NCBI GenBank assembly: GCA_019359435.1
Contig: JAHHHI010000065.1
Coordinates: 62,001 to 126,000 of the forward strand
Source of the DNA: Kaiparowitsia implicata GSE-PSE-MK54-09C
GTDB taxonomy: Bacteria > Cyanobacteriota > Cyanobacteriia > Elainellales > Elainellaceae
Direction: 5' to 3'
Length of the DNA: 64,000 nucleotides
Below the pieces are notes generated by a model. It saw only the letters and a list, made by a program, of their open reading frames with translations. It searched no databases and was not told the DNA's origin. Position numbers and translations under genes: made by a program. Numbering within the stretch: position 1 is the stretch's first letter; the number at the start of each line of letters is the position of its first letter. Positions 238-58,789 of this stretch are shown one piece after another.

Positions 238-493
238 TGGCCCTCAGTTTCTCGTCTAACGCTCTAATCGCCCCATTGGGCAGGTTCACTCGTACCCATC
301 GCCAGCGCAGCGCTGGTTGCCATTGCGCCCACACCGCAGGCAATGCGACAGCAACACCGCGATCGCGCTCTATCGCAATCAGCCCCCAGGCGATTAAACG
401 GGGGTATGGGTCGCGGTTTTGGCCTACTTCTGACTTGGCCCACACGTCGATCGCCGCTAAGCAATCAATCAGGTCGCGGTTTTCCACAATCAC
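197..493 (-). CDS. Hypothetical 98-residue protein of the replication arm
   Basis: Not recognised. Start is a GTG that overlaps the 3' end of the primase gene by 29 bp, and its own 3' end overlaps the HTH gene, the compact packing typical of phage or plasmid operons. The N-terminal half has the helical pattern 'LIDCLAAIDVWAKSEVG' and the centre is Trp-rich ('WAQWQPALRWRWVRV'). No membrane segment, Cys cluster or known motif. Being a co-transcribed partner of the primase is inferred from position only. Confidence 0.5.
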   Translation of the reverse strand: MIVENRDLIDCLAAIDVWAKSEVGQNRDPYPRLIAWGLIAIERDRGVAVALPAVWAQWQPALRWRWVRVNLPNGAIRALDEKLRANEQITLDGCEGRS

Positions 494-1949
494 CCCCCCC
501 CGGATCGGTATCTAAATCGCTAGAACCCTTATCAGACGGTTCATTACACCCTGTACTTAGCTCCCACCCCTCCCAAAACGGCCTAGAATCCGCTGGTAGA
601 GCGGCATTACAGCCGCGATCGCCTAATAAGCTTTTGTGCATTTGCGGCAAGGGCGTCTTAAAACGCCCTTTGCCGCTCTTAAACTCTTTATCGTTGGGGG
701 GGTGCGGGGGGGTATTTCCGAGCGCTGTCGCGTTGGGATGCCAGTACTGCTGATGTCGGTAAAGAGTCTGACCGCTAAAGCCGTAACCCAGCGTCAGATA
801 CTCGAACCGTTCGAGGGTGCCCGCGGGCAACACGCCCCGCAGCTGCGCGTCTGCCACACACCATTTCAGGCGAAGCACTGCTTCTTGCTCCTGGAGCGCA
901 TTCCAGGCGATTTGCTCCGGCTCTACAGCTGCCGCCGGCGGCGCTGGTTTGCCCTTGCGATAGGGGTAATATCTGGGGCAAGCTGCAGCGCAACGCGCCC
1001 ATTCCTCGGCGCGGTTCCAAATGTCGGTTTGATGGCCGCAATACTCTTTGAATCCCGGCAAGCGTTGCGCAGTGGCGACGATATCGCCCACCAAACAATC
1101 GCCCTCTAGTGGCGATTGCTTCTTGTGCAGCACATGCCCAAAAATGTAGCTGCGTAGGGTGATTCGCCCCAAAAGGAAGTTGGTCTGACCATCACCCGTC
1201 CAGCCCAGCTCGATCTCGCGGTTGAGGTCTTCTAAGAATTTGTGCGCCTTATAGCTGAGTCTCAATCGCCGTCGGTTAAACTTTTCGGCAGCCTGGTCGA
1301 TTGCCTCTAGCTCTGGCAGGTTTCGCGCCGTGGCATGTTGCCACCGGCGCACAAATTCGGCTGATGTGGTGTGTGTCAGCTCCCAGGCATCATTAAGCAG
1401 ATAGCTGCCGGGTTGCAACGGCAGGCGATGCCCATTAAAGAGAGACGGCCTGCCATCTTCCCAGGTGCGCACGTTGGGAAAGACTTCAAGAGTTCCACCC
1501 TCTACCGTCACCCCTGCGAGGTTGAACATTTGATGCGCGGCGCTGGCAATCACCCAGCTCTCTATCTCAATGCCGAATGGAAAATAAAGATGGATGCCCC
1601 CGCTGTAGCTGCTGGTGACGGCGATGCTCTCACACAGGCCCAGGCGCTCAAGTGCTGCTCGGATGCGATGGATTGCCAGCCGATCGCCCTTGACCGGGTG
1701 ATAGGGTGAACCCGCATCGATGTCGATCATGAGATATTTAGTGGCAGGCCCAAACCGAACGCCAAGCAACCGGCCCCCGTCGAGAACTGCCCGATCGCTC
1801 AATGGGTAACGGCCCTCGGTGTGCCATTGTGGTTTATCACCGGGGCGTGGGTGCGCTGAATGCAGCCAGTCCCACCGGTGAGGCCAAAGGCTCAAAAATT
1901 TGTCTTGTATTTCCGGGATGCCCCCGGTTAAAGTTGTATTGATTGGCAT
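465..1949 (-). CDS. AEP-superfamily primase/polymerase-like replication protein
   Basis: 494 residues. The N-terminal ~200 residues carry the three conserved elements of archaeo-eukaryotic primase (AEP) folds: a hydrophobic strand ending in DxD (Asp76, Asp78 in 'YLMIDIDAGS'), a small-residue loop with His ('YSGGIHLYF', His120), and a third strand with an acidic residue ('GTLEVFPN', Glu155). Such proteins prime or replicate plasmids and phages; the family assignment is from motif pattern only. The C-terminal half is unassigned, with the last ~90 residues low-complexity and hydrophilic. No helicase Walker A motif is visible, so an unwinding enzyme would have to come from elsewhere. It is the main gene of the leftward arm, 51 bp downstream of a small gene. 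Start is ATG at 1949. Confidence 0.72.
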   Translation of the reverse strand: MPINTTLTGGIPEIQDKFLSLWPHRWDWLHSAHPRPGDKPQWHTEGRYPLSDRAVLDGGRLLGVRFGPATKYLMIDIDAGSPYHPVKGDRLAIHRIRAALERLGLCESIAVTSSYSGGIHLYFPFGIEIESWVIASAAHQMFNLAGVTVEGGTLEVFPNVRTWEDGRPSLFNGHRLPLQPGSYLLNDAWELTHTTSAEFVRRWQHATARNLPELEAIDQAAEKFNRRRLRLSYKAHKFLEDLNREIELGWTGDGQTNFLLGRITLRSYIFGHVLHKKQSPLEGDCLVGDIVATAQRLPGFKEYCGHQTDIWNRAEEWARCAAACPRYYPYRKGKPAPPAAAVEPEQIAWNALQEQEAVLRLKWCVADAQLRGVLPAGTLERFEYLTLGYGFSGQTLYRHQQYWHPNATALGNTPPHPPNDKEFKSGKGRFKTPLPQMHKSLLGDRGCNAALPADSRPFWEGWELSTGCNEPSDKGSSDLDTDPGGGDCGKPRPD

Positions 1950-2000: not shown

Positions 2001-2234
2001 TTATTGGTGTGTCGTGAACCTTGGCAGCTCCACTGATGGAGGCATCCATCGCAGCCAAAAATCAGCGGCTTCCTCCCCTCTCAGCGTTTTTTGCCGTCGG
2101 TCAACAAACTCAATCACTACAGTCATCTCGTCGTTTTCCTTGTCTGGGTCGCAGGGCCGCATATGCGCCCAAGCAACGGTTGAACGATCTAGCTCTGGCA
2201 CGGTTACTATTGATTCCATAGGACATCTGTTCAC
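2001..2234 (-). CDS. Small acidic protein, first gene of the leftward arm
   Basis: 77 residues if the GTG at 2234 is used, 72 from the internal ATG at 2219. Not recognised. It has an acidic centre ('DPDKENDEM'), a strand-like 'TVVIEFVDRR' and a C-terminal 'EEAADFWLRWMPP'. It is the first gene leftward from the divergent control region, 51 bp ahead of the primase, and probably shares its promoter. No function is proposed. Confidence 0.5.
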   Translation of the reverse strand: MNRCPMESIVTVPELDRSTVAWAHMRPCDPDKENDEMTVVIEFVDRRQKTLRGEEAADFWLRWMPPSVELPRFTTHQ

Positions 2235-2244
2235 TTAGGTTTTT

Positions 2245-2280
2245 AACGGGGGTGCGCCCAGGCGCGCCCCCGTTTTTTTT
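2245..2280 (+). terminator. Rho-independent terminator-like hairpin in the divergent control region
   Basis: A 13-bp stem (2245-2257 with 2262-2274, one G-T pair) with a 4-base loop, followed by a run of eight T on the plus strand. There is no plus-strand gene immediately upstream. It therefore either blocks read-through into the repressor gene or, read leftward, sits as a structured leader just before the 2234 start codon. Confidence 0.7.
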
Positions 2281-2293
2281 GTGTGGAAAGCCG

Positions 2294-2325
2294 ACTTAGC
2301 AGAGTGACTAGTCACTCTGCTAAGT
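2294..2325. repeat. Perfect 32-bp palindrome
   Basis: Every base from 2294 to 2325 pairs with its mirror position around the central CTAG; each half reads ACTTAGCAGAGTGACT. It has no loop and no T-run, so it is a two-fold symmetric protein site rather than a terminator. It lies between the divergent arms of the mobile element. Candidate roles are an operator, a replication initiator site or a resolution/recombination site. Confidence 0.85.
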
Positions 2326-2389
2326 GATGGCTGATTATTGTGTGGACGGCGTGTACAAGTTGTCAGCCCATTCACGCCGCCCAGCCACA

Positions 2390-2408
2390 CCAGGTTGTTG
2401 TATACAAC
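2390..2408. promoter_or_regulatory. Operator-like inverted repeat upstream of the XRE gene
   Basis: AGGTTGT-(5 bp)-ACAACCT lies 21 bp upstream of the XRE start codon. The same half-site AGGTTGTA recurs twice as a direct repeat just after the XRE gene (2691-2698 and 2704-2711). Repeated half-sites flanking an XRE regulator suggest an autoregulatory operator; binding is inferred. Confidence 0.55.
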
Positions 2409-2429
2409 CTGATAATACAAGATGCTAAG

Positions 2430-2690
2430 ATGGAACCGAAAATAGTTCAAGTCTATAACCAGATACAGGCAGGTGAAATACCCTTGAAAGCTATACGGGA
2501 TGCGCTTCGGATGAGTCAAAATGAATTTGCACACAAGATAGGTGTGTCAATCACGACTGTCTCACGATGGGAGACAGGCAGAAACGCTGTAACCCTTACA
2601 ATCCCACAGGTTAAGGCGATGGAAAACCTTCTCCACGATATAGGGATGAATTTTAACAGCTTGCCTGATGATCTAGGGCCAAAAAAATGA
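2430..2690 (+). CDS. XRE-family HTH transcriptional regulator
   Basis: 86 residues from the ATG at 2430; a longer reading frame from 2340 would run through the operator-like repeat and is unlikely. Residues ~18-70 form a Cro/CI-type helix-turn-helix with the typical 'MSQNEFAHKIGVSITTVSRW' recognition segment, then a short C-terminal tail. It has no peptidase or oligomerisation domain, so it is a small Cro-like regulator. It heads the rightward arm and faces the leftward replication arm across a palindrome-rich region, the usual layout of a phage or plasmid switch. A strong bidirectional terminator follows 33 bp downstream. Confidence 0.85.
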   Translation: MEPKIVQVYNQIQAGEIPLKAIRDALRMSQNEFAHKIGVSITTVSRWETGRNAVTLTIPQVKAMENLLHDIGMNFNSLPDDLGPKK

Positions 2691-2711
2691 AGGTTGTATT
2701 TACAGGTTGTA
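2691..2711 (+). repeat. Two direct AGGTTGTA half-sites after the XRE gene
   Basis: AGGTTGTA at 2691-2698 and again at 2704-2711, 13 bp start to start (slightly over one helical turn). They match the half-site of the inverted repeat at 2390-2408, so they may be a second binding site of the same regulator. Confidence 0.45.
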
Positions 2712-2757: not shown

Positions 2758-2834
2758 ATTGCAATGTGTAACGCTCTGGGTCGGTACTTGGCGGTTCCCC
2801 CCAGAGCGTTGCCCCACTAAGAGGCACCTTAATT

Positions 2835-3056
2835 ATGGATCAGACAGGTCTTGGCGTCCCTGCGTCAGATTCGCAGCGCCCAATCACGGCAGAGCTAACC
2901 CAGCGCGAACTATTCGCGGGCTGGGCTATGCAAGCCCTGATTCGGGAGTTCCCCGGCAACAACTGCACGGCGATCGCCATCCACGCCGTCGAGATGGCAG
3001 ACGCGCTGATTAAAGAATTGAGCTTCAGCAGTCCCAACCGCGAGGGAGGGGACTAG
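2835..3056 (+). CDS. Small phage-type protein with an 'AxxMADAL' C-terminal helix
   Basis: 73 residues. The pattern 'TQRELFAGWAMQALI...AIAIHAVEMADALIKEL' matches a small protein very common in prophages and siphophage genomes (usual form: LRDYFAAKAMQ ... AYxxADAMLxER). Its molecular function is not established. This is the clearest phage-specific signature in the element. The alternative frame at 2735-3013 is an overlapping shadow. Its stop at 3054-3056 directly abuts the next start codon, indicating one operon. Confidence 0.7.
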   Translation: MDQTGLGVPASDSQRPITAELTQRELFAGWAMQALIREFPGNNCTAIAIHAVEMADALIKELSFSSPNREGGD

Positions 3057-3560
3057 ATGGGCGCAGGTCATCTGCTTGGCTGTTTAATGCTGCTGGCAGC
3101 TATTGTCGGTATCTCCGGCAGCGTTGAGCAGTCGTGGGATAGATCCGATCTAAACCCACAAAGCCCCAACTATGGACAGCCCCCAAATTTAGGGGGTGGA
3201 CAGAACTTAAGGGCGATCGAAATTCCCCCACCTCCCCCACCTCCCCCAGTTGGCGGCGGTGGCGGCGGGGTTTACTCGGCACAACCAATGGAGGCCGCGC
3301 CGGTCGCGCCGGTGACAGCCCCCGCCGGTGAGCAAATCCAAGACCTTGGATTAATCACACGGCAGCAATGGGAAGCGCTCGTCATTTCGGCGGGGGGCAT
3401 TGGTGACGATGGCTGGTTTGCGCGGCCCATCCCAGTTAGCTACGTGGCGGCTCGGATGAGTGCGATCAATCGGGTCGGTTTTGAGTGGGATGAGTATGCC
3501 GGTGTTCTTTTATTTGTTCGAGACAACGAAATTGTTGCTTTGGAGTATTGGTTTAAATGA
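3057..3560 (+). CDS. Secreted or membrane-anchored protein with Pro and Gly tracts
   Basis: 167 residues. The N-terminus is a signal peptide or anchor (residues ~5-22). It is followed by an Asn/Pro/Gly-rich linker containing an eight-proline run (~58-65) and a six-glycine run (~68-73). The C-terminal ~75 residues (from 'LITRQQWEALVISAGG') look like a compact domain. Not recognised. The design, an anchor, a flexible linker and a small domain, resembles envelope-spanning proteins. It starts immediately after the preceding stop and overlaps the next gene by 4 bp (ATGA), so it is translationally coupled to both. Confidence 0.65.
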   Translation: MGAGHLLGCLMLLAAIVGISGSVEQSWDRSDLNPQSPNYGQPPNLGGGQNLRAIEIPPPPPPPPVGGGGGGVYSAQPMEAAPVAPVTAPAGEQIQDLGLITRQQWEALVISAGGIGDDGWFARPIPVSYVAARMSAINRVGFEWDEYAGVLLFVRDNEIVALEYWFK

Positions 3561-3931
3561 CACAGACTACAGAAAAGAAAAGGCCACCGCTTATCATTAT
3601 TGTGCTGGCGTTGGGCGTTGCTGGGGCAATGGTGATGAGTGGTCAACCCACACAGCAATCAGCCCCCGGCGCTCAAATCATGCCCATGCTTCAAGACCCA
3701 GAGGCTGAGTATCACGAATGGGAATATGAGGTGTGGGCTAGCAGTCCCGAGCAAGCGGCATCAAAATGCCGCCAAGCGGCTGAGCAGCAAGGGCTGACAA
3801 CCTTTCACGAAAACAGCGTCAAGCAGGTAACAAGGCGACCATCACAATACGGTGAATACCTGTATAAATGTTCTATGTCAAGCGAAGTTTATGGGGAACC
3901 CCACTATGTACCCGACCATTCAAATCCCTGA
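3557..3931 (+). CDS. Small membrane-anchored protein, hypothetical
   Basis: 124 residues. A basic N-terminus (KKR) and a single hydrophobic segment (~12-28, 'LIIIVLALGVAGAMVM') suggest a type II anchor with the C-terminal ~90 residues outside the membrane. That part has two Cys (in 'SKCRQAA' and 'LYKCSMS') which could form a disulfide. Not recognised. It overlaps the preceding gene by ATGA, and the following small gene starts inside its 3' end. Confidence 0.6.
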   Translation: MTQTTEKKRPPLIIIVLALGVAGAMVMSGQPTQQSAPGAQIMPMLQDPEAEYHEWEYEVWASSPEQAASKCRQAAEQQGLTTFHENSVKQVTRRPSQYGEYLYKCSMSSEVYGEPHYVPDHSNP

Positions 3932-4220
3932 AATCCCACCGGCAGGCGAATACTGGATTACACTCAATCTTTCTAAAATTGAAGATGATGTGTTACACGC
4001 ATTGTTCAAAGCTGCAACTCTGGGGTTTAAGCCGCAAATCTGTTTGCAGGAAGGCACCGGCGATCTAATTGCAGTGCTTTTTTATCAATACAGAGCTGAT
4101 GATAGTTCCGATTTCTCTGAATTGTATTTTGATGAGAAAGCTGAACTGAACCATCTATACGGCGATGCATTGCAATGCTGTCGTGGACTGCACAAGAGAA
4201 ATCGACTAGTTGCGGCATAG
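3906..4220 (+). CDS. Hypothetical small soluble protein
   Basis: 104 residues from the ATG at 3906; a longer frame from 3852 would overlap the upstream gene by 80 bp. It has a mixed alpha/beta pattern with no membrane segment ('EYWITLNLSKIEDDVLHALFKAATLGF') and a Cys pair 'QCC' near the C-terminus. Not recognised. It is the last gene of the operon begun at 2835, followed at once by a terminator. Confidence 0.55.
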   Translation: MYPTIQIPEIPPAGEYWITLNLSKIEDDVLHALFKAATLGFKPQICLQEGTGDLIAVLFYQYRADDSSDFSELYFDEKAELNHLYGDALQCCRGLHKRNRLVAA

Positions 4221-4256
4221 CCCCTCAGCCCTCCACACAACACGGTGAAAGCTCCC

Positions 4257-4282
4257 ACGCCCCATCTAGGGGCGTTTTTTTT
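4257..4282 (+). terminator. Rho-independent terminator
   Basis: A 7-bp GC-rich stem (4257-4263 with 4269-4275), loop ATCTA, and eight T. It ends the 2835-4220 operon. Confidence 0.85.
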
Positions 4283-4327
4283 GGCCGCGACTGGGTACAG
4301 TTGGGGCCAAAGACGGGAATTATGAAA

Positions 4328-4351
4328 TTGCCCTGCCAAAATGCAGGGCAA
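4328..4351 (+). promoter_or_regulatory. Hairpin in the leader of the membrane protein gene
   Basis: A perfect 9-bp stem (TTGCCCTGC at 4328-4336 with GCAGGGCAA at 4343-4351) and a 6-base loop, 27 bp before the next start codon. There is no T-run. It may be a leader stem affecting translation or message stability. Confidence 0.45.
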
Positions 4352-4377
4352 ACACCATCACTTACAGGATTCCCACA

Positions 4378-4866
4378 ATGTTTAAGGCAATCATCAGAGC
4401 GTGTCAGCTTTGCCTATGGAACTATCTCGGACTGGTCATATTTTTCTTTGCATTTTGGTGCCTATTCCTAGGTGGAATATTTCTCAGTATTAATATTTTT
4501 AGTGTTGATCCACTAATCCTTTCTGCATTAGCATTCGTCCCTTTATTAATTGGCGTCGCCTTGTTCGCAATTGCGTTATTGATATGGTCGCTAATATTGC
4601 GAATATTGTGGACAAAACCCCCGGCATGGCTCAATGTTCAATGGCGTGAATTTGGCTGGGACTGCCTCACTTCACTGCTTGCAACTCTCTCCCTCGCTAT
4701 CTTATTTTTCTCCAAGATTTTCATCTATTACAACATTGAAAAGGTATTTCTCGTTGACCTTGAATATAGAGGCATTGCAGAAGATATCGTGCTTAATTTT
4801 TGGTGGCTATGGTTGATAGTTGCAACATTTTCAATGCTAAATCGTGCAGGTAAAGCTACTATTTAG
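4378..4866 (+). CDS. Polytopic membrane protein, hypothetical
   Basis: 162 residues with four hydrophobic segments (~15-35, ~45-75 as one or two spans, ~97-112 and ~138-152) joined by a 'WTKPPAWLNVQWREFGWDC' loop. It is noticeably AT-richer in codon use than neighbouring genes and lacks the alanine-rich style of the following genes, which suggests a separate origin. Not recognised. It could be a virion or export membrane component, or a superinfection or immunity protein carried as cargo. Confidence 0.6.
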   Translation: MFKAIIRACQLCLWNYLGLVIFFFAFWCLFLGGIFLSINIFSVDPLILSALAFVPLLIGVALFAIALLIWSLILRILWTKPPAWLNVQWREFGWDCLTSLLATLSLAILFFSKIFIYYNIEKVFLVDLEYRGIAEDIVLNFWWLWLIVATFSMLNRAGKATI

Positions 4867-4887
4867 AAGCTGTTTCCAACTATTAAT

Positions 4888-5196
4888 ATGGTTGCCTTCG
4901 CCGCTTCAGACCTTCCGCCAAACATCGATTCAATAGAAAAGCTGGCAATTTGGTCAGCCACAATCCTAAACGACCTGGCTGGAAGCCAGACCTATGAGCC
5001 AGACGCCGGAGTGATCGACTTTCTGGCGCAAGCGGCCCCTGTTCAGGTATTTAGAGGGCCGAATGTGGGATGGCGCTACGAGTTCAGAGTTTCCGTCCCT
5101 ATCGGAACTGGCGATTTCCGCAGGGCCGGTAAGATTTGGAGCTATGCGCAACCGCTCTCCTCTGCCGCGCTACCCGTTGCTTATCGCTCTGCCTAA
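4888..5196 (+). CDS. Hypothetical 102-residue protein coupled to the large structural-type gene
   Basis: Begins at ATG 4888, 21 bp after the membrane protein. The stop overlaps the next start (TAATG at 5194-5198), so the two are translationally coupled. Not recognised. The centre is rich in beta-prone segments ('VGWRYEFRVSVPIGTGDF'). No membrane span. A structural or assembly role is suggested only by its position. Confidence 0.55.
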   Translation: MVAFAASDLPPNIDSIEKLAIWSATILNDLAGSQTYEPDAGVIDFLAQAAPVQVFRGPNVGWRYEFRVSVPIGTGDFRRAGKIWSYAQPLSSAALPVAYRSA

Positions 5197-7913
5197 TGTC
5201 TCTATCCCCTCTTATTCGGGCCGCAGGTGAATGGTTGCCCGTCATTGGTGCCGTCGCGCCGTTGGCGATTCAGCAAGCGCGACAGCAGTTGCCCCGTGCA
5301 AGGGCGATCGCCGGTCGGCTTGTCCCGGCCATGCGGCGCGTTGGCAACCCTCCAATTACGCCGCGAGTAGGAGTTGCGCCAGCGGCGGATAGAATGGCCC
5401 CGGCCATCGGTAGCGCCACCCGCACCGCCGCCGATTCGTTTGAGCGGCAATTGCGCGCGCCCGCCGCCCGCCGCCCGCCCACACCATCTCAGGCGGCGGC
5501 GGTCGGGCAACTGAATCAGTTGTATGGCTTGCCCGACGCCGTCCGCCCGCCCCTGGCCCCAACAGCACCCCGCCTGCCAATTGGTTCACCTAGCGCCCCC
5601 TCTGCCGCTGCGAGGGGTGCCACACGCAGGGCGGCGGCAGCGGCCACACGCAGGGCCGCCGCTGGTTCACTGCGGGCGGCCGCCCCATCCATCGCCAGAG
5701 CCGCCGTCCGCAGAGGTCTACTCAGAGCAGTCGCACCCTGGGCGTTGCGAGCTGCCGCCGTGGGTCGCTTTGCGATTAGCCCACTGGGCACCGTCGCCCT
5801 ACTCGCAGCAGAATTCGGAATTCGCTACTATCTCCAGCGACGGAGAGAACGCGCCGCATCATCGTCAGGCAACGCTATCCCGGCCCCCTATCCAGAGGCG
5901 CTCACCACCGGCGGCGGCAACGGCCAACCCTACGGTATTGAGGCCTTTCGGGATGGCGTTTCTGCCTACAGTGAGCAAACCGTATACGGCCCCGTAACGG
6001 GATTTGAGACTGTAGTAACGCAAGAAACTAACAGGTTTGGCTATGTCGAAACTCGGCAAGTTCCTACGGTTTATGCCCGTGCCACACCAAACGGGCCGAT
6101 TCAGGCTATCAATCTAGGCGACGGAGACTTTTGGATCGGAGATCAACCTGCTCCACAGTGGAGCTACGGCATTCGCCCGCTGTTTGAGGGGCAAGACACG
6201 CCGCTAGTGGTTCAACCTACAAACCTACTAGCACCGGATTTAACACCGCTACCACAGCAATCGCCCATCCCCACCCCCGCCCTGGCCCCGGCAACGGCCC
6301 CCGCCCCATCCCCCTTATTAGTTCCGTTTCCGTTCCCATTCCCGGCCCCGATACCGGCCCCCGGTGCCACACCTGGAACCGGCCCCTTCCCTAGATTTAA
6401 CCCCACACCTGGACACACCCCCCGGCGATCGCGCCCCGTTCAACCTGGCAGCGGATCATCCATTGGCCGCAGAGTTGCCAGCGGGCCAAGCCGGTCAAAC
6501 CTACCTGATACGTCATTGCGGCAACGAATCTCTACATTTGTCAGCACCGGCGGCGGCATCGACACCGACCAATGCCCCGACCCCTGCCCTGACCCCTGCC
6601 CAGACCCCTGCCCAGAGCCAGAAGATTACAACGATCGGTTTGACCAGTTAGAACGCCGTTTGGCGTTTATGGATGTGAAGTTAAACCGCATCTTAAACCG
6701 CCTCCCTGAGGGCGGTTTAGGCGGGGCGATCGCCGCTTCATTAGAGTGGAACAACCCAGAAACCCTAGAGCCTGAAGTGAGAGATTTCGAGGGCGAAGGG
6801 ATTGCAGGCATCCATGCTCAGCTCAATGCAATGCAAGAACTGCTGACACAAGTCACGCACTCACAGTCAAGATTGTGGCGAATCTATCGACTGTTAGAAG
6901 GGGACTTATGGTATCTCGATAGACCTGATTCTCTCTTTCCTTTCAGAAAGGTTAAGCCAGAGCAGGCGTTAAGAAACCCCCGCGCTTATCGATCAGATCG
7001 AGATGATTATGACCCGCTTGATTGGAGTTATGAAGAATTCTGCAATTCTCTACTGCAATTAAATGAGTTGCAGTTAGGCGCAATATTTGAGCGCTCAGGG
7101 TTATATCGGTTCCCCGCAGAGCTGCCAGACTCGCTTACTTCAGAAGAAATAGACCCCCAAACGGGAGATCCAAAATTGGCTGATATTTTGGATCAGGCAA
7201 CATATCATGAATGGTTTTTGCGACAATTCGACTCAATTCTAGGCGAATTTCCAATAAAAATCAGATATAAAGATTCAGACAATAATGACCAATTGATAGA
7301 ACTGCCGAACCTCGCCGAATCAATAGCAGAATTAACCGGCTTAATGCTGAATGTTGCGGCAGATGCTGAGATTGGAACACAGCTTGGATTTAGCGCTACA
7401 ACAGAGGCGATCCGCGCGAATATGTCAGCGGTCAATGCTGCCGATTTTTCTAGAGCAATCGCTGAATATCTAGGGTTTAAGTTTAAGGAAACAACGCGGG
7501 ATGTGAAACTATCAATCTCACCAGGCGCAACCAACATCAGAGACTCATTAAAGCCCGGTACATTAAAAGGTCAAAAGGTTGAATACGCTGAAAAAACCGA
7601 TTTTCAGCAGGACTTGAGACGGCTGGTGATTGGTACAGAAATCATTAAAGCCGCATTTTATAGGCCGTGGCGCGGTGTCAACGATGAGTTCCCAGGTGAG
7701 GGCATCCGCAAGGATCGGGAAGTTGAACCATCAGACACCGAAACCGAGAGCGATCGCCAGTGGCGCGAGTTTCTAGAGCAGCTAGAGCGGCCAAGGGGCG
7801 GTTGGGCACGTGATGCCGGAGCGCCAAAGCCCGACTTCAAAAATATTGCACCCAGAGATAGACCGGATGGGGAGTACCCGCCGCCGCCGCAACCAACCGG
7901 AGGGGGCCGCTAA
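5196..7913 (+). CDS. Large Ala/Pro-rich protein of the phage-like element, structural candidate
   Basis: 905 residues from the ATG at 5196 (TAATG overlap; a start at 5136 would overlap the upstream gene). The first ~220 residues are Ala/Arg-rich, with many 'RRAAAAATRRAA' stretches, and end in a hydrophobic span ('ISPLGTVALLAAEFGI'). A long Pro/Ala linker follows at ~340-460, then a Cys-Pro-Asp-Pro repeat with 'DQCPDPCPDPCPDPCPEPED' at about residue 465, then a predicted coiled coil ('DRFDQLERRLAFMDVKLNRILNRL') and a ~400-residue folded C-terminus. No terminase, portal or tail motif was recognised. The basic N-terminus could bind nucleic acid. It is the largest gene of the element and is followed 2 bp later by another large gene. 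Confidence 0.65.
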   Translation: MSLSPLIRAAGEWLPVIGAVAPLAIQQARQQLPRARAIAGRLVPAMRRVGNPPITPRVGVAPAADRMAPAIGSATRTAADSFERQLRAPAARRPPTPSQAAAVGQLNQLYGLPDAVRPPLAPTAPRLPIGSPSAPSAAARGATRRAAAAATRRAAAGSLRAAAPSIARAAVRRGLLRAVAPWALRAAAVGRFAISPLGTVALLAAEFGIRYYLQRRRERAASSSGNAIPAPYPEALTTGGGNGQPYGIEAFRDGVSAYSEQTVYGPVTGFETVVTQETNRFGYVETRQVPTVYARATPNGPIQAINLGDGDFWIGDQPAPQWSYGIRPLFEGQDTPLVVQPTNLLAPDLTPLPQQSPIPTPALAPATAPAPSPLLVPFPFPFPAPIPAPGATPGTGPFPRFNPTPGHTPRRSRPVQPGSGSSIGRRVASGPSRSNLPDTSLRQRISTFVSTGGGIDTDQCPDPCPDPCPDPCPEPEDYNDRFDQLERRLAFMDVKLNRILNRLPEGGLGGAIAASLEWNNPETLEPEVRDFEGEGIAGIHAQLNAMQELLTQVTHSQSRLWRIYRLLEGDLWYLDRPDSLFPFRKVKPEQALRNPRAYRSDRDDYDPLDWSYEEFCNSLLQLNELQLGAIFERSGLYRFPAELPDSLTSEEIDPQTGDPKLADILDQATYHEWFLRQFDSILGEFPIKIRYKDSDNNDQLIELPNLAESIAELTGLMLNVAADAEIGTQLGFSATTEAIRANMSAVNAADFSRAIAEYLGFKFKETTRDVKLSISPGATNIRDSLKPGTLKGQKVEYAEKTDFQQDLRRLVIGTEIIKAAFYRPWRGVNDEFPGEGIRKDREVEPSDTETESDRQWREFLEQLERPRGGWARDAGAPKPDFKNIAPRDRPDGEYPPPPQPTGGGR

Positions 7914-7915
7914 CT

Positions 7916-9412
7916 ATGCCGATACCCGCATGGGCAGCAGGCGGAATTAAACTCACGCGGCAGGCGATGGCATCGCGTCAAGTGCGCGTGTTTTTGGGTG
8001 AGAGAAACATCGACATTTTCACCTCGCTAACCCAGCCAGAACCCACCCGCACCAACCCAGACGGTTCGATCGTCCCCTCGTTTCTGAATGGCGCATGGCG
8101 ACTGGCACGGCGATTAGGTGGGTTTGTGCTGCGAGTCGCTAGCGCTGCTGTAGGTTGGTTACTGCGAAACCTATGGGATCTGCTAGTCGATGCCTACTTT
8201 GAAATCATCAACTTTGACTTCAATCAATTGGATAGCGACATTCAAACCGCAATTAACGCAAACAACCTTCAGATTTTTGGGGCACTGGGGCAGTTTGCCG
8301 GATCGTCCCTAGTGTGGATTGCCTCCGCAGGTTTGGCAGCAGGCTTAACCCTAAAATTCCCGGTGATCGCCGGTAAAGTGTTCATGGCCCTCGCAGAGGA
8401 AGGCTCAGACGAAATCAGAGGCCAATTAGTGGGCTTAATTCAGGTTTCAGGGTATGCCATGTCTCGCAGCCTGTTGCTAAGTTCCTTTCTCACCCTGCGC
8501 CGGTTGCGGTTGTTTGGCCTTGCGCCAGTAACAGAGCGCCGTGAACCGTGGACAATTGCCGAAGCAGTTGAAGAAAGAGTGCAAAGGATTGAGAGTAATG
8601 CCCTCAGAATTTTTGTTGAGAACTTTTTAGAAGGTGTCGAAGAAGCGGTGATCGAAGCTGGCTACGTAGTGAGCTATGCCATTGATGACTACTACCAGGC
8701 GGCAAAATACGCATCACAAAGCCAATTAGGAAAAGAAAGAGCCGTGGTCATTACCCCCAATGAGGAATTAAGAGGCGAAACGGTAGTGTTAAGCGGCAAA
8801 ACGGAGATCCTGAAGCCGCAGATCCAACAGACGCTAGCCACACACAGGCTCATCCATAACCGCGATGTAGGCGAAATTGTGGGGCAACCGGCAGAGGATT
8901 GGTACAGAGCGGGTGTGCAGCGCCGCAAGCTTACGATCATCTTTAAATCAAAATCAGAGCCACCGTGGCGCACTGCCTCTGGTGAGCAAGTCAAGACAGT
9001 TACATACACCATCCCAGAGCCAAAACGCGGGTTGAACTGGCAAGAAATCAAGCTTGCAGCCCGTCTATATGATTGGGGTAAATATCGGGCAACAGCAAAC
9101 CTAGATAATGGGCGGCAAATGGCCGTCTATGGCGCGTCTGAGGCAGAGGCAGAGCGCAAACTGAGAGAACTGCTCACCCTCTCAACGGGTGAACTCATCA
9201 CCCTAAGCGTGACAGAAGAGAAGGATCGCAACATCGCATTGCGAAAAGACCCACAGCGCATGTATCCCGCGTTTGCCTATCTGCTCGTCAGACGGCCCAC
9301 AACCTCGATCACCGGGAACACTGACCTGACCGGCCAACGGTTTCGAGATGAGAAAACCCGTATCGACCTATGGCCCACAGTTGAACCACCAGACTTCACC
9401 CCAACCTTATGA
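7916..9412 (+). CDS. Large protein with central hydrophobic helices, structural candidate
   Basis: 498 residues. Starts 2 bp after the preceding stop and overlaps the next gene by 4 bp. There are hydrophobic segments at ~75-90 and ~120-180 ('FAGSSLVWIASAGLAAGLTL', then another around 'VIAGKVFMALAEE'). The C-terminal ~250 residues are soluble alpha/beta, with 'KTVTYTIPEPKRGLNWQEIK'. Not recognised as a portal, capsid, tape-measure or Zot-type ATPase: no Walker A motif is visible. It probably acts with the coupled 905-residue protein, for example as a membrane-associated virion or assembly factor; this is inference. Confidence 0.6.
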   Translation: MPIPAWAAGGIKLTRQAMASRQVRVFLGERNIDIFTSLTQPEPTRTNPDGSIVPSFLNGAWRLARRLGGFVLRVASAAVGWLLRNLWDLLVDAYFEIINFDFNQLDSDIQTAINANNLQIFGALGQFAGSSLVWIASAGLAAGLTLKFPVIAGKVFMALAEEGSDEIRGQLVGLIQVSGYAMSRSLLLSSFLTLRRLRLFGLAPVTERREPWTIAEAVEERVQRIESNALRIFVENFLEGVEEAVIEAGYVVSYAIDDYYQAAKYASQSQLGKERAVVITPNEELRGETVVLSGKTEILKPQIQQTLATHRLIHNRDVGEIVGQPAEDWYRAGVQRRKLTIIFKSKSEPPWRTASGEQVKTVTYTIPEPKRGLNWQEIKLAARLYDWGKYRATANLDNGRQMAVYGASEAEAERKLRELLTLSTGELITLSVTEEKDRNIALRKDPQRMYPAFAYLLVRRPTTSITGNTDLTGQRFRDEKTRIDLWPTVEPPDFTPTL

Positions 9413-9615
9413 ACGAGTTCCCGTTATATCGCCGTCTAAGCACTCGCAGCCGCCGCGCCATAGTCCGAACCAATAAACGCTATGGGCACCCCTACACATA
9501 CAACCCACGGGGAAACCTGTTGCGGCGGCTGTCGCGTGAGACTGGCATGACTCTAGAGCAGGTGTACTCTCAGCTAATGCGAGAACGTTCTGAATTGATA
9601 AGAACCAGGCGATAA
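9409..9615 (+). CDS. Small highly basic protein
   Basis: 68 residues with about 17 Arg/Lys and several Tyr ('RRLSTRSRRAIVRTNKRYGHPY'). The start codon overlaps the previous stop (ATGA). The second half resembles a short amphipathic helix ('TGMTLEQVYSQLMRERSELI'). Small basic phage proteins often condense nucleic acid or are virion components; that role is inferred from composition only. Confidence 0.6.
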   Translation: MNEFPLYRRLSTRSRRAIVRTNKRYGHPYTYNPRGNLLRRLSRETGMTLEQVYSQLMRERSELIRTRR

Positions 9616-9768
9616 ATAGCGGTCAAAGTATTAAGTTTTATTACCCTTGGTCCTGTGTGCTAAAAACAAACCCTTAGGGTTCGATATCAGAACTTACGTA
9701 AATACCGAGGCTTGAAACGCTTTCTGTGATTGCGTTACGGTTGCATCACATTCAAGGAGTCAACCTCT
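9616..9768 (+). promoter_or_regulatory. Leader with strong ribosome binding site before the 112-residue gene
   Basis: This 153-bp gap interrupts an otherwise tightly packed gene array. It contains a TTACGTAA palindrome near 9694, a small AACCC/GGGTT hairpin, and AAGGAG at 9754-9759, ideally spaced 9 bases before the ATG at 9769. A separate promoter is likely but no convincing -10/-35 pair can be assigned by eye. Confidence 0.45.
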
Positions 9769-10107
9769 ATGGCCGCTATTACCCCTTCTGTTTTGTTCCC
9801 TGGCTATGCCCTGCTGGCTGCTGCTGAGGCCGCCCCAAGTCAAGGTATTTTCATCCCCCTAGCTGACCTAGTTGGACTAACAGCCGCCGAAGGTGACGTG
9901 GCCACCGGCGACGGTCGCAAGGTTGCTTATGAAGTGTTGCGCAGAATTGAATCATCGTTCTCCGCACTGCCTACGACAGATCGCCCGACTCGCATGAACG
10001 TTGCCGTAGGCACACCGACCGGCATTAATGGCAACACCGTACGCCGCTCCTATACCCTCACATTTGATGTCAGCATTAGCGACACCGATATGGCTGACGA
10101 AGCCTAG
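9769..10107 (+). CDS. 112-residue protein, candidate major virion or abundant protein
   Basis: Starts at ATG 9769 behind a strong AAGGAG. The N-terminal ~30 residues are hydrophobic and small-residue rich ('PSVLFPGYALLAAAEA'). The middle reads 'IFIPLADLVGLTAAEGDVATGDGRKV', and the C-terminal half is a likely beta-hairpin region ('NTVRRSYTLTFDVSISDTD'). Not recognised by family. Its separate leader, strong ribosome binding site, small size and a hairpin just after it are what one expects for an abundant structural subunit. That is inference; it could also be a regulatory protein. Confidence 0.65.
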   Translation: MAAITPSVLFPGYALLAAAEAAPSQGIFIPLADLVGLTAAEGDVATGDGRKVAYEVLRRIESSFSALPTTDRPTRMNVAVGTPTGINGNTVRRSYTLTFDVSISDTDMADEA

Positions 10108-10108
10108 A

Positions 10109-10139
10109 AATAGGGTGATCGAGTGAGTTAAACCCTATT
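10109..10139 (+). promoter_or_regulatory. Hairpin after the 112-residue gene
   Basis: An 8-bp stem (AATAGGGT at 10109-10116 with ACCCTATT at 10132-10139) begins one base after the stop codon. There is no following T-run, so it may stabilise the 3' end or attenuate transcription into the next gene. Confidence 0.4.
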
Positions 10140-10158
10140 AGAGGCAAATTAAAAAACA

Positions 10159-10755
10159 ATGGCACAAAACGTTTACGACAGAAGGCGATCGGTCTATGTG
10201 ACACCGATTAGAGCATCTGTACTGAAGTATGGGTTTCTAACCAACGTGACAGCAGCAGTGGGAACCGCTTGCGGACACGTTGCGGTAGATCCCGAGAACC
10301 CTCCTACTGGCCTGGCTTATGGGGTGAATGCTCCCAAACCAGGACGGGCAACCCGCCGCCGTTTTGACGGACATGATTCCACCTGGTATGACATCGGGCA
10401 GGCTAGTGCGCTGCGACAGGCTGGCTACAGTCTTTCACGGCCTAGAATCCGAATTAGTGGAGGTGGAGAAAACTCCTTCCCTGTCTACGTGACGCTCGCG
10501 GGGATTAAGTATGCGTGGAGAATGCCCGTTCATACCTACTTGGCTGCTGGAGGCGATCGCGCCGCGTTAGGAATCCAGGACGCAACATCAGGAGACCGAG
10601 ATCTAGTTTGGGGTGCTGATAGTCCTAAGCCGCCGAAAGGCTACAAAAAAGAGGAGAACCGAAGTATCTCAACGTTTGTAGACCCGCAGCGGATCGACAA
10701 CCTACCCCCCGGCTGGCGTGCAGTTGACCGGGATGCAGAACGCGACGAGGGATAG
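10159..10755 (+). CDS. Hypothetical 198-residue protein of the late-type operon
   Basis: Begins 51 bp after the 112-residue gene. The N-terminal half has a repeated 'YGFLTNVTAAVGTACGHVAVD' style beta pattern. The middle ('SRPRIRISGGGENSFPVYVTLAGIKYAWRMPVHTYLAA') looks like a beta-sandwich segment, and the last ~50 residues are charged and probably disordered. Not recognised. Its stop overlaps the next start (GTG at 10755), indicating coupling. A minor virion role is inferred from position. Confidence 0.55.
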   Translation: MAQNVYDRRRSVYVTPIRASVLKYGFLTNVTAAVGTACGHVAVDPENPPTGLAYGVNAPKPGRATRRRFDGHDSTWYDIGQASALRQAGYSLSRPRIRISGGGENSFPVYVTLAGIKYAWRMPVHTYLAAGGDRAALGIQDATSGDRDLVWGADSPKPPKGYKKEENRSISTFVDPQRIDNLPPGWRAVDRDAERDEG

Positions 10756-11009
10756 TGGTGCTTATCCTCCCAGGCGATCCACTGTTTGACCTGACATTAG
10801 CGACAAGCCTGCCGCCTGATTGGCAGGCTGTAGCTAGTGCCATCAATCAGCCCCCCGTGTTTGTGGCTAGCGCGGCCGATGGCATCCTGCGACCGGCGAC
10901 ACCAAAGGAGACGATTGAATATCTCTATGGTGGCGAATATGACGAGCGCAACGACTCAATAAACGACGACGGCGATGACCTGGCAATATCTGAATTTATT
11001 GAACGTTGA
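10755..11009 (+). CDS. Small acidic protein, hypothetical
   Basis: 84 residues from a GTG overlapping the previous stop codon; a second GTG follows directly at 10758. The C-terminus is very acidic ('GGEYDERNDSINDDGDDLAI'). It overlaps the next gene by 35 bp in another frame. Short acidic proteins just upstream of a receptor-binding protein are often chaperones or connectors, but no family is recognised. Confidence 0.5.
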   Translation: MVLILPGDPLFDLTLATSLPPDWQAVASAINQPPVFVASAADGILRPATPKETIEYLYGGEYDERNDSINDDGDDLAISEFIER

Positions 11010-11739
11010 CCTAGAGTGGCAGCTCTCCGCAGAAACAACCGCCACATTGGTTAAGCTGACTTGGATACCCTCGATTGGTTACGATGTGGCGGGCCGTGCC
11101 CTCATAGGTCAGGCATGGGTGACAGATCAGGGTAAGTATGAGCTGTTTGGCATCCGGCGCGCCTATGCCAAAAATGAAGGCGATCTGTATGAGTTATCTG
11201 CCCCCGCTCAATACCCACAGAGCAGGCGAATCGCCTTCAGGTTTTTACCGGCCCCCTATTGGTCACGCCTGCAAAGCGTACTGGTAGAGCAGTGGGTTGG
11301 GGATGCCCCCCCGCCAACAGGGAACACCTACAACATTAACTTTCAGGATGCGCCCAGCTTTGCTAGGCTCACCGGCGCTAGTACTAGCGGTAGTACAAGT
11401 GGCGTCGATTACCCAATTAATTTCACCACTGCAATTATTCAGGGTTTTACTAATACCGAAAATGGACTACTGACGGTGTTAGAAAGTGGCTTCTATTTGG
11501 TTACTTATCGGCTTCAATTCTCTTCAACCTCTACTGCCGGTGAACGTGTTGCGTGGGTTAATAATAGCGGCAATCAAGTTTTACTTAATCAATCCGCAGG
11601 AAGCGCCTCGAGCATTGTGCCACTATCGTTAATTCAAGAATTCTTAGCAGGCAATACGCTACGGCTAGTCTGTAGGCAAACGTCAGGAACACAGTTACCG
11701 CTAGTGAATGCGAATATTTCAATTGTCAAGGTTGCATAG
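10975..11739 (+). CDS. C1q/TNF-like beta-sandwich protein, receptor-binding candidate
   Basis: 254 residues. Residues ~1-115 form an N-terminal attachment-like domain, followed by a Ser/Thr/Gly linker ('GASTSGSTSGVD', ~133-145). The C-terminal ~110 residues follow the jelly-roll pattern of C1q/TNF-like domains: 'ESGFYLVTYRLQFSS', a central strand, 'FLAGNTLRLVCRQTSG', and a terminal 'NANISIVKVA' strand. In phages such domains cap fibres and bind host surface polymers. The family call is by pattern. It lies just upstream of the lysis-type genes, where receptor-binding proteins usually sit. Confidence 0.65.
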   Translation: MTWQYLNLLNVDLEWQLSAETTATLVKLTWIPSIGYDVAGRALIGQAWVTDQGKYELFGIRRAYAKNEGDLYELSAPAQYPQSRRIAFRFLPAPYWSRLQSVLVEQWVGDAPPPTGNTYNINFQDAPSFARLTGASTSGSTSGVDYPINFTTAIIQGFTNTENGLLTVLESGFYLVTYRLQFSSTSTAGERVAWVNNSGNQVLLNQSAGSASSIVPLSLIQEFLAGNTLRLVCRQTSGTQLPLVNANISIVKVA

Positions 11740-12077
11740 TGGCTATAACTATCGAAACAATTGCCTTCATCTCTGCCTTGTTAGGTCTAGCTGGTGCACT
11801 CTGGAATGCTTACCACAAGCTGTATTCAGCCAAAGAGCAGATACACACTGAGCAGTTAAGAATCGTTCATAGATTAGAGATTTTAGAACGCGAAATTGAT
11901 GCCCAGAAAGATAGATTAACACTAGGTGTGAATGGGTGTCTTGAGAAAGTTGACCACATGAAAACGCGGCTTGTGGGAACTCAAAACGAAACCCAAAATA
12001 GAGTAAGTCAGATGGAAAGCTATCTACAAAAAAACACGGCTTTTGAGATTCGTTCTTGGGGAGGGCCGGGGCATTGA
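11739..12077 (+). CDS. Membrane-anchored coiled-coil protein, holin/spanin candidate
   Basis: 112 residues from a GTG overlapping the previous stop. There is one N-terminal transmembrane segment (~5-24, 'IETIAFISALLGLAGALWNA') followed by a long heptad-rich region (~30-100, 'LRIVHRLEILEREIDAQKDRL'). Size, topology and its 22-bp overlap with an endolysin-type gene fit a holin or spanin-like protein of a lysis cassette. No specific family is recognised. Confidence 0.6.
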   Translation: MAITIETIAFISALLGLAGALWNAYHKLYSAKEQIHTEQLRIVHRLEILEREIDAQKDRLTLGVNGCLEKVDHMKTRLVGTQNETQNRVSQMESYLQKNTAFEIRSWGGPGH

Positions 12078-12502
12078 AACTAAGCAAATATTTCACGCTG
12101 GCTGAAATGACTTTCTCCCAAACGGCATTACGACGGGGAATTAATAACACCCCTGGGCCGTCAGAGATAAAGAATCTACAGGTTTTATGTGAGGAAGTTT
12201 TAGACCCAGTAAGAGAGCAATTCGGTAAGGCAATCACCCCAAATAGCGGCTATAGATCAGAGGAATTAAATTTGGCGATCGGTGGCGCTCGAAGTAGTCA
12301 ACACATTGCGCGGGGGAAGGCGGCCGCCTGTGACTTTGTGGTGCCAGGTGTGAGCGTTCCTATCGTCTGTGACTGGATTCACTACAATTTGACGTTTGAC
12401 CAGCTCATAGAGGAATTCTGGAACCCAAAAACGGGCCGGGGCTGGGTGCATGTGTCGTATGACCCCATGCGGCAACGCCGTCAGAGAATCAGAATCGGAT
12501 AG
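12056..12502 (+). CDS. M15-family peptidase, endolysin-like
   Basis: 148 residues; the first in-frame start is a TTG overlapping the upstream gene, with another TTG at 12074. The sequence has the M15_3 layout: 'LSKYFTLAEMTFSQTA' lead, 'ITPNSGYRS' loop, 'SSQHIARG' with zinc ligand His83, 'AACDF' with Asp93, and 'GWVHVSYDP' with His132. These enzymes cleave D-Ala or L-Ala-D-Glu bonds in peptidoglycan stems and serve as phage endolysins. The His-to-Asp spacing is about three residues longer than usual. It closes the rightward arm after the holin-like gene. Confidence 0.82.
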   Translation: MGRAGALKLSKYFTLAEMTFSQTALRRGINNTPGPSEIKNLQVLCEEVLDPVREQFGKAITPNSGYRSEELNLAIGGARSSQHIARGKAAACDFVVPGVSVPIVCDWIHYNLTFDQLIEEFWNPKTGRGWVHVSYDPMRQRRQRIRIG

Positions 12503-13025
12503 CTTTACCCTTGCTATCTTTTAGGCTAGTTTTTAGGCACAAGGAACAGCAAAGCGACTGAAATGCTTTAATATCAAGCCTTTCAGCGATAGAGTGCGGT
12601 GATTCGAATTCCCCTGGGGGTACTTAGCGCATGGCAAGGCGCTTTAATGCAAAAGGCGGTGGACAACTTCGATTGTCTGCCGCTTTTTGTATTGAAGCTC
12701 TGGAGGGAAGCGGCCTGCAAACGTTGGGGCCGACCTAGGGCGATAGGGAAACGCCTAGCCTAGCGCTCATAGCTGGCTGGGTTGGCCTCAGCGTTGCATC
12801 CTTAGTTTAAGGCCAGCTTTAAGGCAAAGCATCGTTGGGGTTGAGCGTGTTCCCATTCATTTTTGCTGCAGGGTAGCACGCTAGAATCTAAAGCAAAAGC
12901 CATGGCCTGTAGAACCAGAAGAACTGAGTGAAACCATCTCTACGCGCTGCGTTCATCCCGCTTCATTGGTCTAGCCCAGCAAGGTGTAGCAGCGCTAAGA
13001 ATTTTCCGAAGGAGGACACCTGCGA
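12503..13025. other. Gene-free junction between the mobile element and host genes
   Basis: This stretch has no convincing gene. At about 12597-12613 a plus-strand segment with loop TTCGAAT and 4 of 5 pairs resembles a tRNA T-arm, followed by a G-rich run that could be acceptor-stem remnant. It may be an attachment-site relic, but no complete tRNA is present. A strong terminator lies at 12652-12688. From about 12.7 kb onward only spacer and the VOC gene leader are seen. Confidence 0.4.
12652..12688 (+). terminator. Rho-independent terminator
   Basis: An 11-bp stem (12656-12666 with 12673-12683, two G-T pairs), loop CTTCGA and five T, preceded by AAAA so that it may work both ways. It is 150 bp past the M15 peptidase gene and probably ends that transcript or a small RNA starting in the spacer. 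Confidence 0.75.
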
Positions 13026-31237: not shown

Positions 31238-31269
31238 GTTGAGGGAGGGGCGATCGCCCCTCCCTCAAC
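31238..31269. terminator. 32-bp perfect palindrome around a HIP1 site, terminator-like
   Basis: GTTGAGGGAGGGGCGA and its exact complement meet at the GCGATCGC centre. It lies 10 bp after the second cpcG stop. With only CTTC following, termination would be weak; it may instead stabilise the message end. Confidence 0.6.
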
Positions 31270-57982: not shown

Positions 57983-58789
57983 GTTGTCTCTTTCACCTCA
58001 TGGTTCACAATTCCTGCTCAGACGTTGGTAAAGGCTGGTGCGAACCCCGCCTTTGGTCAAGAGCAGGTGCAAAACGACACAGTCACATACCGTCTGAAGG
58101 ACGCGGTTGAGGATCGAAACACTCCATAATGCCGATCGTGCAGTCCCTCTCAATGCCGACGAAGTTAGCTGACGGGCGAGGGCTGAGAGTTGCCCCTCCG
58201 TGAAGGTTGAGCGCTGAAGGAACCAACATGTGGAACCCAAAGATTCGTGATGTAGAGCCCTGTTCAACAACTCAGTCTTCCTAAAAGATAAGCCCCAATG
58301 GATGGATCCTCCGCTTCATGAATGCCGACTACCATCACGATGATGAGCAACGGATTCGTGAATTAGGCTGACTTATGTTGTTTTGCTGCGAGGATAGCGT
58401 ACCAAATTATGATTAGTCAACTCATCATCCTAGAGAGAGAATAAATCTGATGAAGAAAATAGCTCGGAGCAAACTAATCGCAATAGTGATGAATAAATTG
58501 GGGATAACCGAACTCAAAACCATACTGTTGTGGCGTTTCTGCTAGTGAAATCTATTGGCAAAACGCAGCTCTAAGCATGCCATGGGGGCGATCGCCCCTG
58601 ATGTTTAGACCCTACAGTTGAAATTCAAAATAACTGATTGGGCAATCAGAAAACGCCGTCTGTATCGTAGCCCACACCAGAGTAGGTTCAATAGATTCTG
58701 AGCCCAACTGTTCAGGATTTTGGGAAAGGTCTGCGAATTTCAATCGAACCCAGCCTCTGCGGTATTGACGCCATTAATCAACTGAGAAA
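57983..58789. other. Intergenic region, divergent promoters
   Basis: 807 bp between the leftward GT4 gene and the rightward GHL10-type gene. No convincing gene; minus- and plus-strand open frames here lack family features and good starts. It must contain both promoters. One HIP1 palindrome (GGGGCGATCGCCCC) is at ~58586-58599. Confidence 0.45.

Follow-up and report, generated by a model that had tools for sequence, protein, structure and literature searches.

We found that the region between two divergent gene arms of a virus-like cyanobacterial element is probably an autoregulated, lysogeny-type switch built around an XRE repressor, with an insulating terminator and with a perfect palindrome that would give the replication-operon transcript a stable leader hairpin. 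The parts of this reading carry their own weight. That the region is a switch cassette with an insulating terminator appears very probable. That the palindrome is a leader hairpin is tentative, with a little less than an even chance, and we infer its role.

The element measures 13,827 bp and is integrated in tRNA-Glu of the chromosome. It is bounded by 26-bp att repeats (GATTCGAATTCCCCTGGGGGTACTTA), with one copy each at attL (L002:18774-18799, the 3' end of tRNA-Glu, left of the window) and at attR (window 12601-12626, plus strand), where the 3' end of tRNA-Glu is repeated. The window, G000:C70:62001-126000 of a cyanobacterial genome, is the whole stretch of 64,000 nucleotides that was analysed, and coordinates without a locus name refer to it. 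From left to right the element carries an integrase, a xis-like HTH gene, a primase-polymerase (Prim-Pol), a small gene, the switch, the XRE gene, rightward genes and an M15 endolysin. The integrase, encoded outside the window on its left side from L002:18890, has a weak Phage_integrase match (E 4e-4); the xis-like gene gave weak matches only, and the endolysin belongs to phrog_894 (E 8e-40). An integrase, tRNA-Glu att repeats, a Prim-Pol arm on the left and late genes with an endolysin on the right are what is expected of an excisable element.

The late genes (e.g. 5196-7913, 7916-9412 and 10159-10755) had no significant match in Pfam, PHROGs or NCBIfam. One late protein of 498 aa gave 0 matches in IMG/VR, and the fold of one late protein had no significant counterpart in a viral library, so that the late genes of this element family stand without a match in the phage, viral-contig or Pfam families tested. 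Within the family, late genes are shared across window 3057-12502, L027, L079-L091 and L096-L114, and related late proteins occur in elements of Leptolyngbyaceae-like and Pseudanabaena genomes. No related elements were found in IMG/VR, and the switch DNA gave 0 matches to plasmids and phages in distant mode. The late genes possibly define an undescribed provirus family, which gains here defined borders, att sites and a control logic in cyanobacteria. A 254-aa protein of the late operon (10975-11739) has a spike-like C-terminal BclA_C/TNF-like domain with a weak match (E 3.9e-5). Two closely similar copies of a related element, L082 and L083 (G018:C1), lie ~15.4 kb apart in a tandem-like arrangement.

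The leftward replication arm encodes an AEP-type Prim-Pol of 494 aa (465-1949, minus strand), identified by its motifs and fold. The motifs DxD (residues 76-78) and SGGxH (116-120) are kept in six relatives, save for one substitution in L082. Its AF2 model, of moderate confidence (mean pLDDT 66), has the CRISPR-associated Prim-Pol (CAPP) 7nqd as best PDB match (E 1.8e-6), and the protein has 0 matches in Pfam, PHROGs and NCBIfam. The search for the primase in phages found none; cyanobacterial plasmids gave 66 records, all below 60% identity. The first gene of the arm is small (72 aa, 2001-2219, minus strand); the copy in the related element L024 is 67-69% identical, and L027 has a gene of similar size at the corresponding place. 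Between these two genes, a Prim-Pol leader hairpin (1966-1993) matches its L024 counterpart (685-712) better in inverted orientation (27/28), the loop being seemingly flipped.

On the other side of the switch lies the gene of the XRE/HTH_3 repressor (86 aa, 2430-2690, plus strand; PF01381, E 7.4e-11). The exact sequence AGGTTGTA has four copies in the 64 kb, three of which (2403 on the minus strand, 2691 and 2704 on the plus strand) fall within 310 bp around this gene. Repeated half-sites on both sides of the regulator, as described from the sequence alone, are therefore present, and so is the divergent arrangement of an XRE-type regulator, operators and a primase arm, in which the primase is the AEP Prim-Pol. 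An upstream CAGGTTGT at 2391 completes a dyad with the neighbouring AGGTTGTA-type site, and we predict that this dyad (CAGGTTGT-TGTAT-ACAACCTG, 2391-2411), which adjoins a GATAAT -10-like box (2411-2416), is the XRE operator. The downstream sites form a tandem (2690-2711, plus strand). In this the region agrees with a phage-type lysogeny switch, where the promoter of an HTH repressor gene bears operator repeats specific to that repressor. The XRE protein would most likely repress its own promoter from the 2391-2411 dyad and probably also the divergent replication arm, and it may act at 2690-2711 as well. The repressor gene is followed by a bidirectional-looking terminator (2720-2760) with 18-bp arms that are 94% complementary.

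The region resembles the immunity region of temperate phages (CI/Cro-type) in that an HTH_3 repressor gene and a replication arm diverge, in its repressor-specific dyads and in its heteroimmune exchange of cassettes. It differs in having one small XRE gene with no second regulator identified, a structured leader and an inward-facing terminator; moreover, it resides in a cyanobacterium, and its late genes are without match in the phage families tested.

The left border of the switch is an intrinsic terminator (2245-2280, plus strand) with its stem at 2245-2274 and a T-run to 2280, which faces the switch. In the T8 hairpin, a 2-nt loop caps a stem of 14 bp that contains one mismatch. No plus-strand gene ends close upstream, the nearest being the integrase ~2.2 kb away, and the terminator-like hairpin without a preceding plus-strand gene that had been noticed before holds up. 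The T-run lies on the repressor-facing side in 11/11 switches compared, mostly on unrelated sequences, and thus all 11 have the orientation of an insulating terminator of the Tn916 T1 type, against incoming transcription. We infer that the terminator insulates the switch and that termination in vivo has this direction. It would stop antisense transcripts that cross the replication arm before they enter the switch, and such transcripts might originate at the integrase gene, in the host DNA or, once the element is an excised circle, in the late genes on its far side. In Tn916, an insulating terminator and a cis-acting RNA antiterminator are established (PMC11658703). By analogy with its T1/canT, the terminator here would bar outside transcription from the control genes, and strong RNA hairpins lie nearby. 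Unlike in Tn916, the terminator stands between the arm leader and the repressor; the likeness is one of layout, and antitermination is suggested by analogy only.

The genome contains a sister element, L024 (G000:C36), which shows where the module ends; these borders, the gapped inverted repeat at 2343-2383 and the direct repeat around the palindrome had escaped the sequence-only reading. Its DNA is 85% identical to the window over 1401-2279 and 94% over 2931-3050. The terminator's T-run marks the point (2279) at which homology is lost; it returns at 2828, around the start codon of the first rightward gene (2835-3056, plus strand; border and gene together 2828-3056), and between 2279 and 2931 the two elements share this context only. 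The N-terminus of the primase is 91% identical, and the upstream DNA and the T8 hairpin are common to both. The L024 cassette contains a different XRE gene, which was detected by a profile built on the XRE proteins of the switches, as well as its own TACCTC/GAGGTA repeats, and the palindrome is absent from it. Since L024 shares the arm and the hairpin but has another XRE gene, other operators and no palindrome, the palindrome belongs to the repressor cassette and does not follow the primase. Related elements thus differ by the cassette between 2279 and 2828, as in heteroimmunity, and comparison of the two sequences shows that it is exchanged as a unit in which repressor, operators and leader hairpins change together, with the terminator as its boundary. 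L024 may be decaying or defective, because its primase is truncated beside transposase-like sequence at the contig end.

We compared 11 switches: six with a Prim-Pol replication arm (the window, L024, L027, L082, L088 and L145) and those with an AAA_25 ATPase arm (L087, L090, L105, L112 and L147, the last taken together with L035). The ten related switches have the same layout, namely a repressor-facing terminator, often a gapped inverted repeat, and then repressor-specific operators. Each switch has its own set of operator repeats at the repressor start, such as three TGAAC-N4-GTTCA sites in L082. Gapped inverted repeats with a loop of 16-22 nt lie in the terminator-operator interval of the window, L027, L035/L147, L088, L090 and L145; several share a GATGATTRGG flank, and those of L027, L035, L090 and L145 exceed chance (0-1 of 150 shuffles). 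When the gapped repeats were aligned with MAFFT, their stems did not fall into register. Short-loop hairpins are more than random sequence would give in the window and in L035 and L105 (0/150 shuffles each), and more weakly in L082 (1/150); at 150 shuffles they do not in L024, L027, L087, L088, L090 and L112, nor in L145 (12/150). Since just three switches, those of the window, L035 and L105, have them clearly, the palindromic hairpin (hairpin B) is not obligatory. The closest parallel is L035, whose XRE is 49% identical to that of the window and which has the same order of terminator, short-loop hairpin, gapped repeat, operators and XRE; its 12-bp short-loop hairpin, in the corresponding position, and its gapped repeat were each matched by 0/150 shuffles. 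An arm-swap test (79/88 pairs against a mean of 46) was discarded as circular because the arms had been chosen for complementarity, and the 150-shuffle scan is the fair one. A search of 36 family genomes for the sequence GATGATTRGGTATGCGG gave three exact matches, each of them at a switch, and a match with one mismatch led to L145; the one-mismatch matches at L129 and L140 were rejected as chance and those with two mismatches as background. In L145, the leftward arm leader seems to have received a HicAB-like gene pair as an insertion (2935-3389).

The palindrome itself (2294-2325) is loop-free and perfect, as had been reported, with 16-bp arms, 0 mismatches and a 0-nt loop, and its stem is extended by AGCC/GGCT. 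Loop-free arms reached at most 10 when 30 copies of the window were simulated with a first-order Markov model. A second perfect loop-free palindrome of 32 bp occurs in the window at 31238-31269, centred on GCGATCGC and 10 bp past the stop codon of an ORF (247 aa) with the look of a phycobilisome linker; because of it, length and perfection are not diagnostic of an exotic function. The palindrome is no terminator, as the T-run is missing on both strands. Imperfect direct repeats flank it, TTTTTGTGTGGA (2276-2287, plus strand) and the 12-nt TTATTGTGTGGA (2335-2346, plus strand), with a match of 11/12, and if the palindrome is removed the leader still forms a short AGCC-GGCT hairpin. Both features would suit the insertion of a small palindromic repeat, mobile or dispersed, with a 12-nt direct repeat left behind. 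Such an origin is very unlikely, as no further copy exists in its own genome or in 385 other cyanobacterial genomes (≤3 mismatches), and its sequence as an exact 24-mer core or a 28-mer is absent from the genomes of 84,980 species and from IMG/VR. A dispersed repeat has many genomic copies; the palindrome is single-copy, so that the possibility of its recurrence at unrelated loci, raised by the sequence-only reading, can be set aside.

The same reading had proposed that the palindrome is an origin or resolution site used by the primase and had named its absence from otherwise conserved related elements as evidence to the contrary. This absence is what we found: the palindrome is missing from L024 despite the 91% identical primase N-terminus, and it was not found in the Prim-Pol elements L027, L082, L088 and L145. 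The structure is not retained with the primase across related replicons, and the short-loop hairpins of L147/L035 and L105 accompany an AAA ATPase arm. That the palindrome, alone or together with the gapped repeat, forms an origin or single-strand initiation hairpin for the Prim-Pol is therefore quite unlikely, even though the arm encodes a Prim-Pol and the DNA strand folds strongly at the palindrome region (z -7.95). A precedent exists in plasmid pRN1, where an AEP-domain replication protein needs for replication a stem-loop that is conserved in structure but hardly in sequence (PMC4234260). The element shares with pRN1 an AEP Prim-Pol and hairpins conserved in structure rather than in sequence. 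However, the stem-loop of pRN1 lies 3' of the replication gene and has a long loop, whereas here the palindrome is independent of the primase between elements.

An operator is the other function to be weighed, although the palindrome had been thought too long and too perfect for a simple one. This objection is weakened by L087 (440-1000, minus strand), in which a perfect loop-free palindrome of 46 bp with TGAAC/GTTCA half-sites lies exactly at the XRE start codon; L112 (17100-17985, minus strand) has a near-perfect loop-free one of 44 bp with the same half-sites, also at the XRE start codon. Both are plain repressor-promoter sites. The core GTGACTAGTCA of the palindrome recurs in the operator regions of the XRE genes of L035 and L038, whose products are 49% and 47% identical to the XRE of the window, and the palindrome lies inside the divergent promoter region. 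Since long palindromes serve as operators in L087 and L112 and GTGACTAGTCA recurs in L035 and L038, a dyad over the leftward promoter that binds XRE or another regulator with high affinity is a serious rival. We nevertheless regard it as somewhat unlikely: the palindrome is without AGGTTGTA, the repeat clustered at the XRE gene, it lies ~65 bp off the XRE operator while those of L087 and L112 abut the start codon, and the shared 11-mer has, by a rough estimate, a probability of ~3% of being a chance match.

As a leader hairpin, the palindrome would act together with a gapped inverted repeat (hairpin A, 2343-2383; 11-bp arms with one mismatch, 19-nt loop), both of which fall within the 5' leader predicted for the transcript of the leftward replication arm. 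The predicted leader RNA (minus strand 2219-2392) folds at -82.2 kcal/mol, compared with -51.0 for shuffles (z -7.2), and shuffling of the palindrome only costs the fold ~15 kcal/mol. In the fold, the palindrome is a 14-bp stem with the AGCC/GGCU extension beside the gapped repeat, and a GUGUGG/CCACAC pairing closes both. The leader would thus form a very stable structure of two hairpins and a three-way junction. Hairpin A is enclosed by GTGTGG (2281 or 2340) and CCACAC (2385-2390). Because GTGTGG is present twice (2281, 2340) and CCACAC once (2385), the leader structure has two alternative closings, an observation that is no demonstration of a switch. No consistent -35/-10 is shared by the leftward arms across the elements.

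Most likely, the leader structure would tune expression at the RNA level by protection, pausing or antitermination. A broader proposal, in which gapped repeat and palindrome form a cis-acting RNA module (antiterminator or attenuator) whose structure and not sequence is shared across the switches of the family, seems unlikely. If true, it would coordinate the replication arm with the late arm, whose leader bears a similar hairpin. An RNA role of the gapped repeat is not proven, because the GU/AC asymmetry implies different strands in different elements, and the repeat possibly acts as single-stranded DNA or as a protein site instead. The leaders of both divergent transcripts are structured, as with the put RNA antiterminators of HK022, to which we draw an analogy only, the promoters here being predicted. 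If the leader hairpins are RNA regulators, they would add a testable cis-RNA layer to what is known of the temperate control of such elements in cyanobacteria.

A gapped inverted repeat with a 19-nt loop (2768-2812, plus strand) also stands in the rightward leader. Hairpins with a loop of 17-19 nt are present at this position and in the rightward leaders of L024 (1605-1643) and L027 (5034-5074), and in shape they resemble the leftward gapped repeat. Scanned against Rfam with gathering thresholds, neither the window nor five relatives showed a family within the switch; far from it, at 58140-58339 on the minus strand, the window carries a c-di-AMP riboswitch (RF00379, 47.1 bits).
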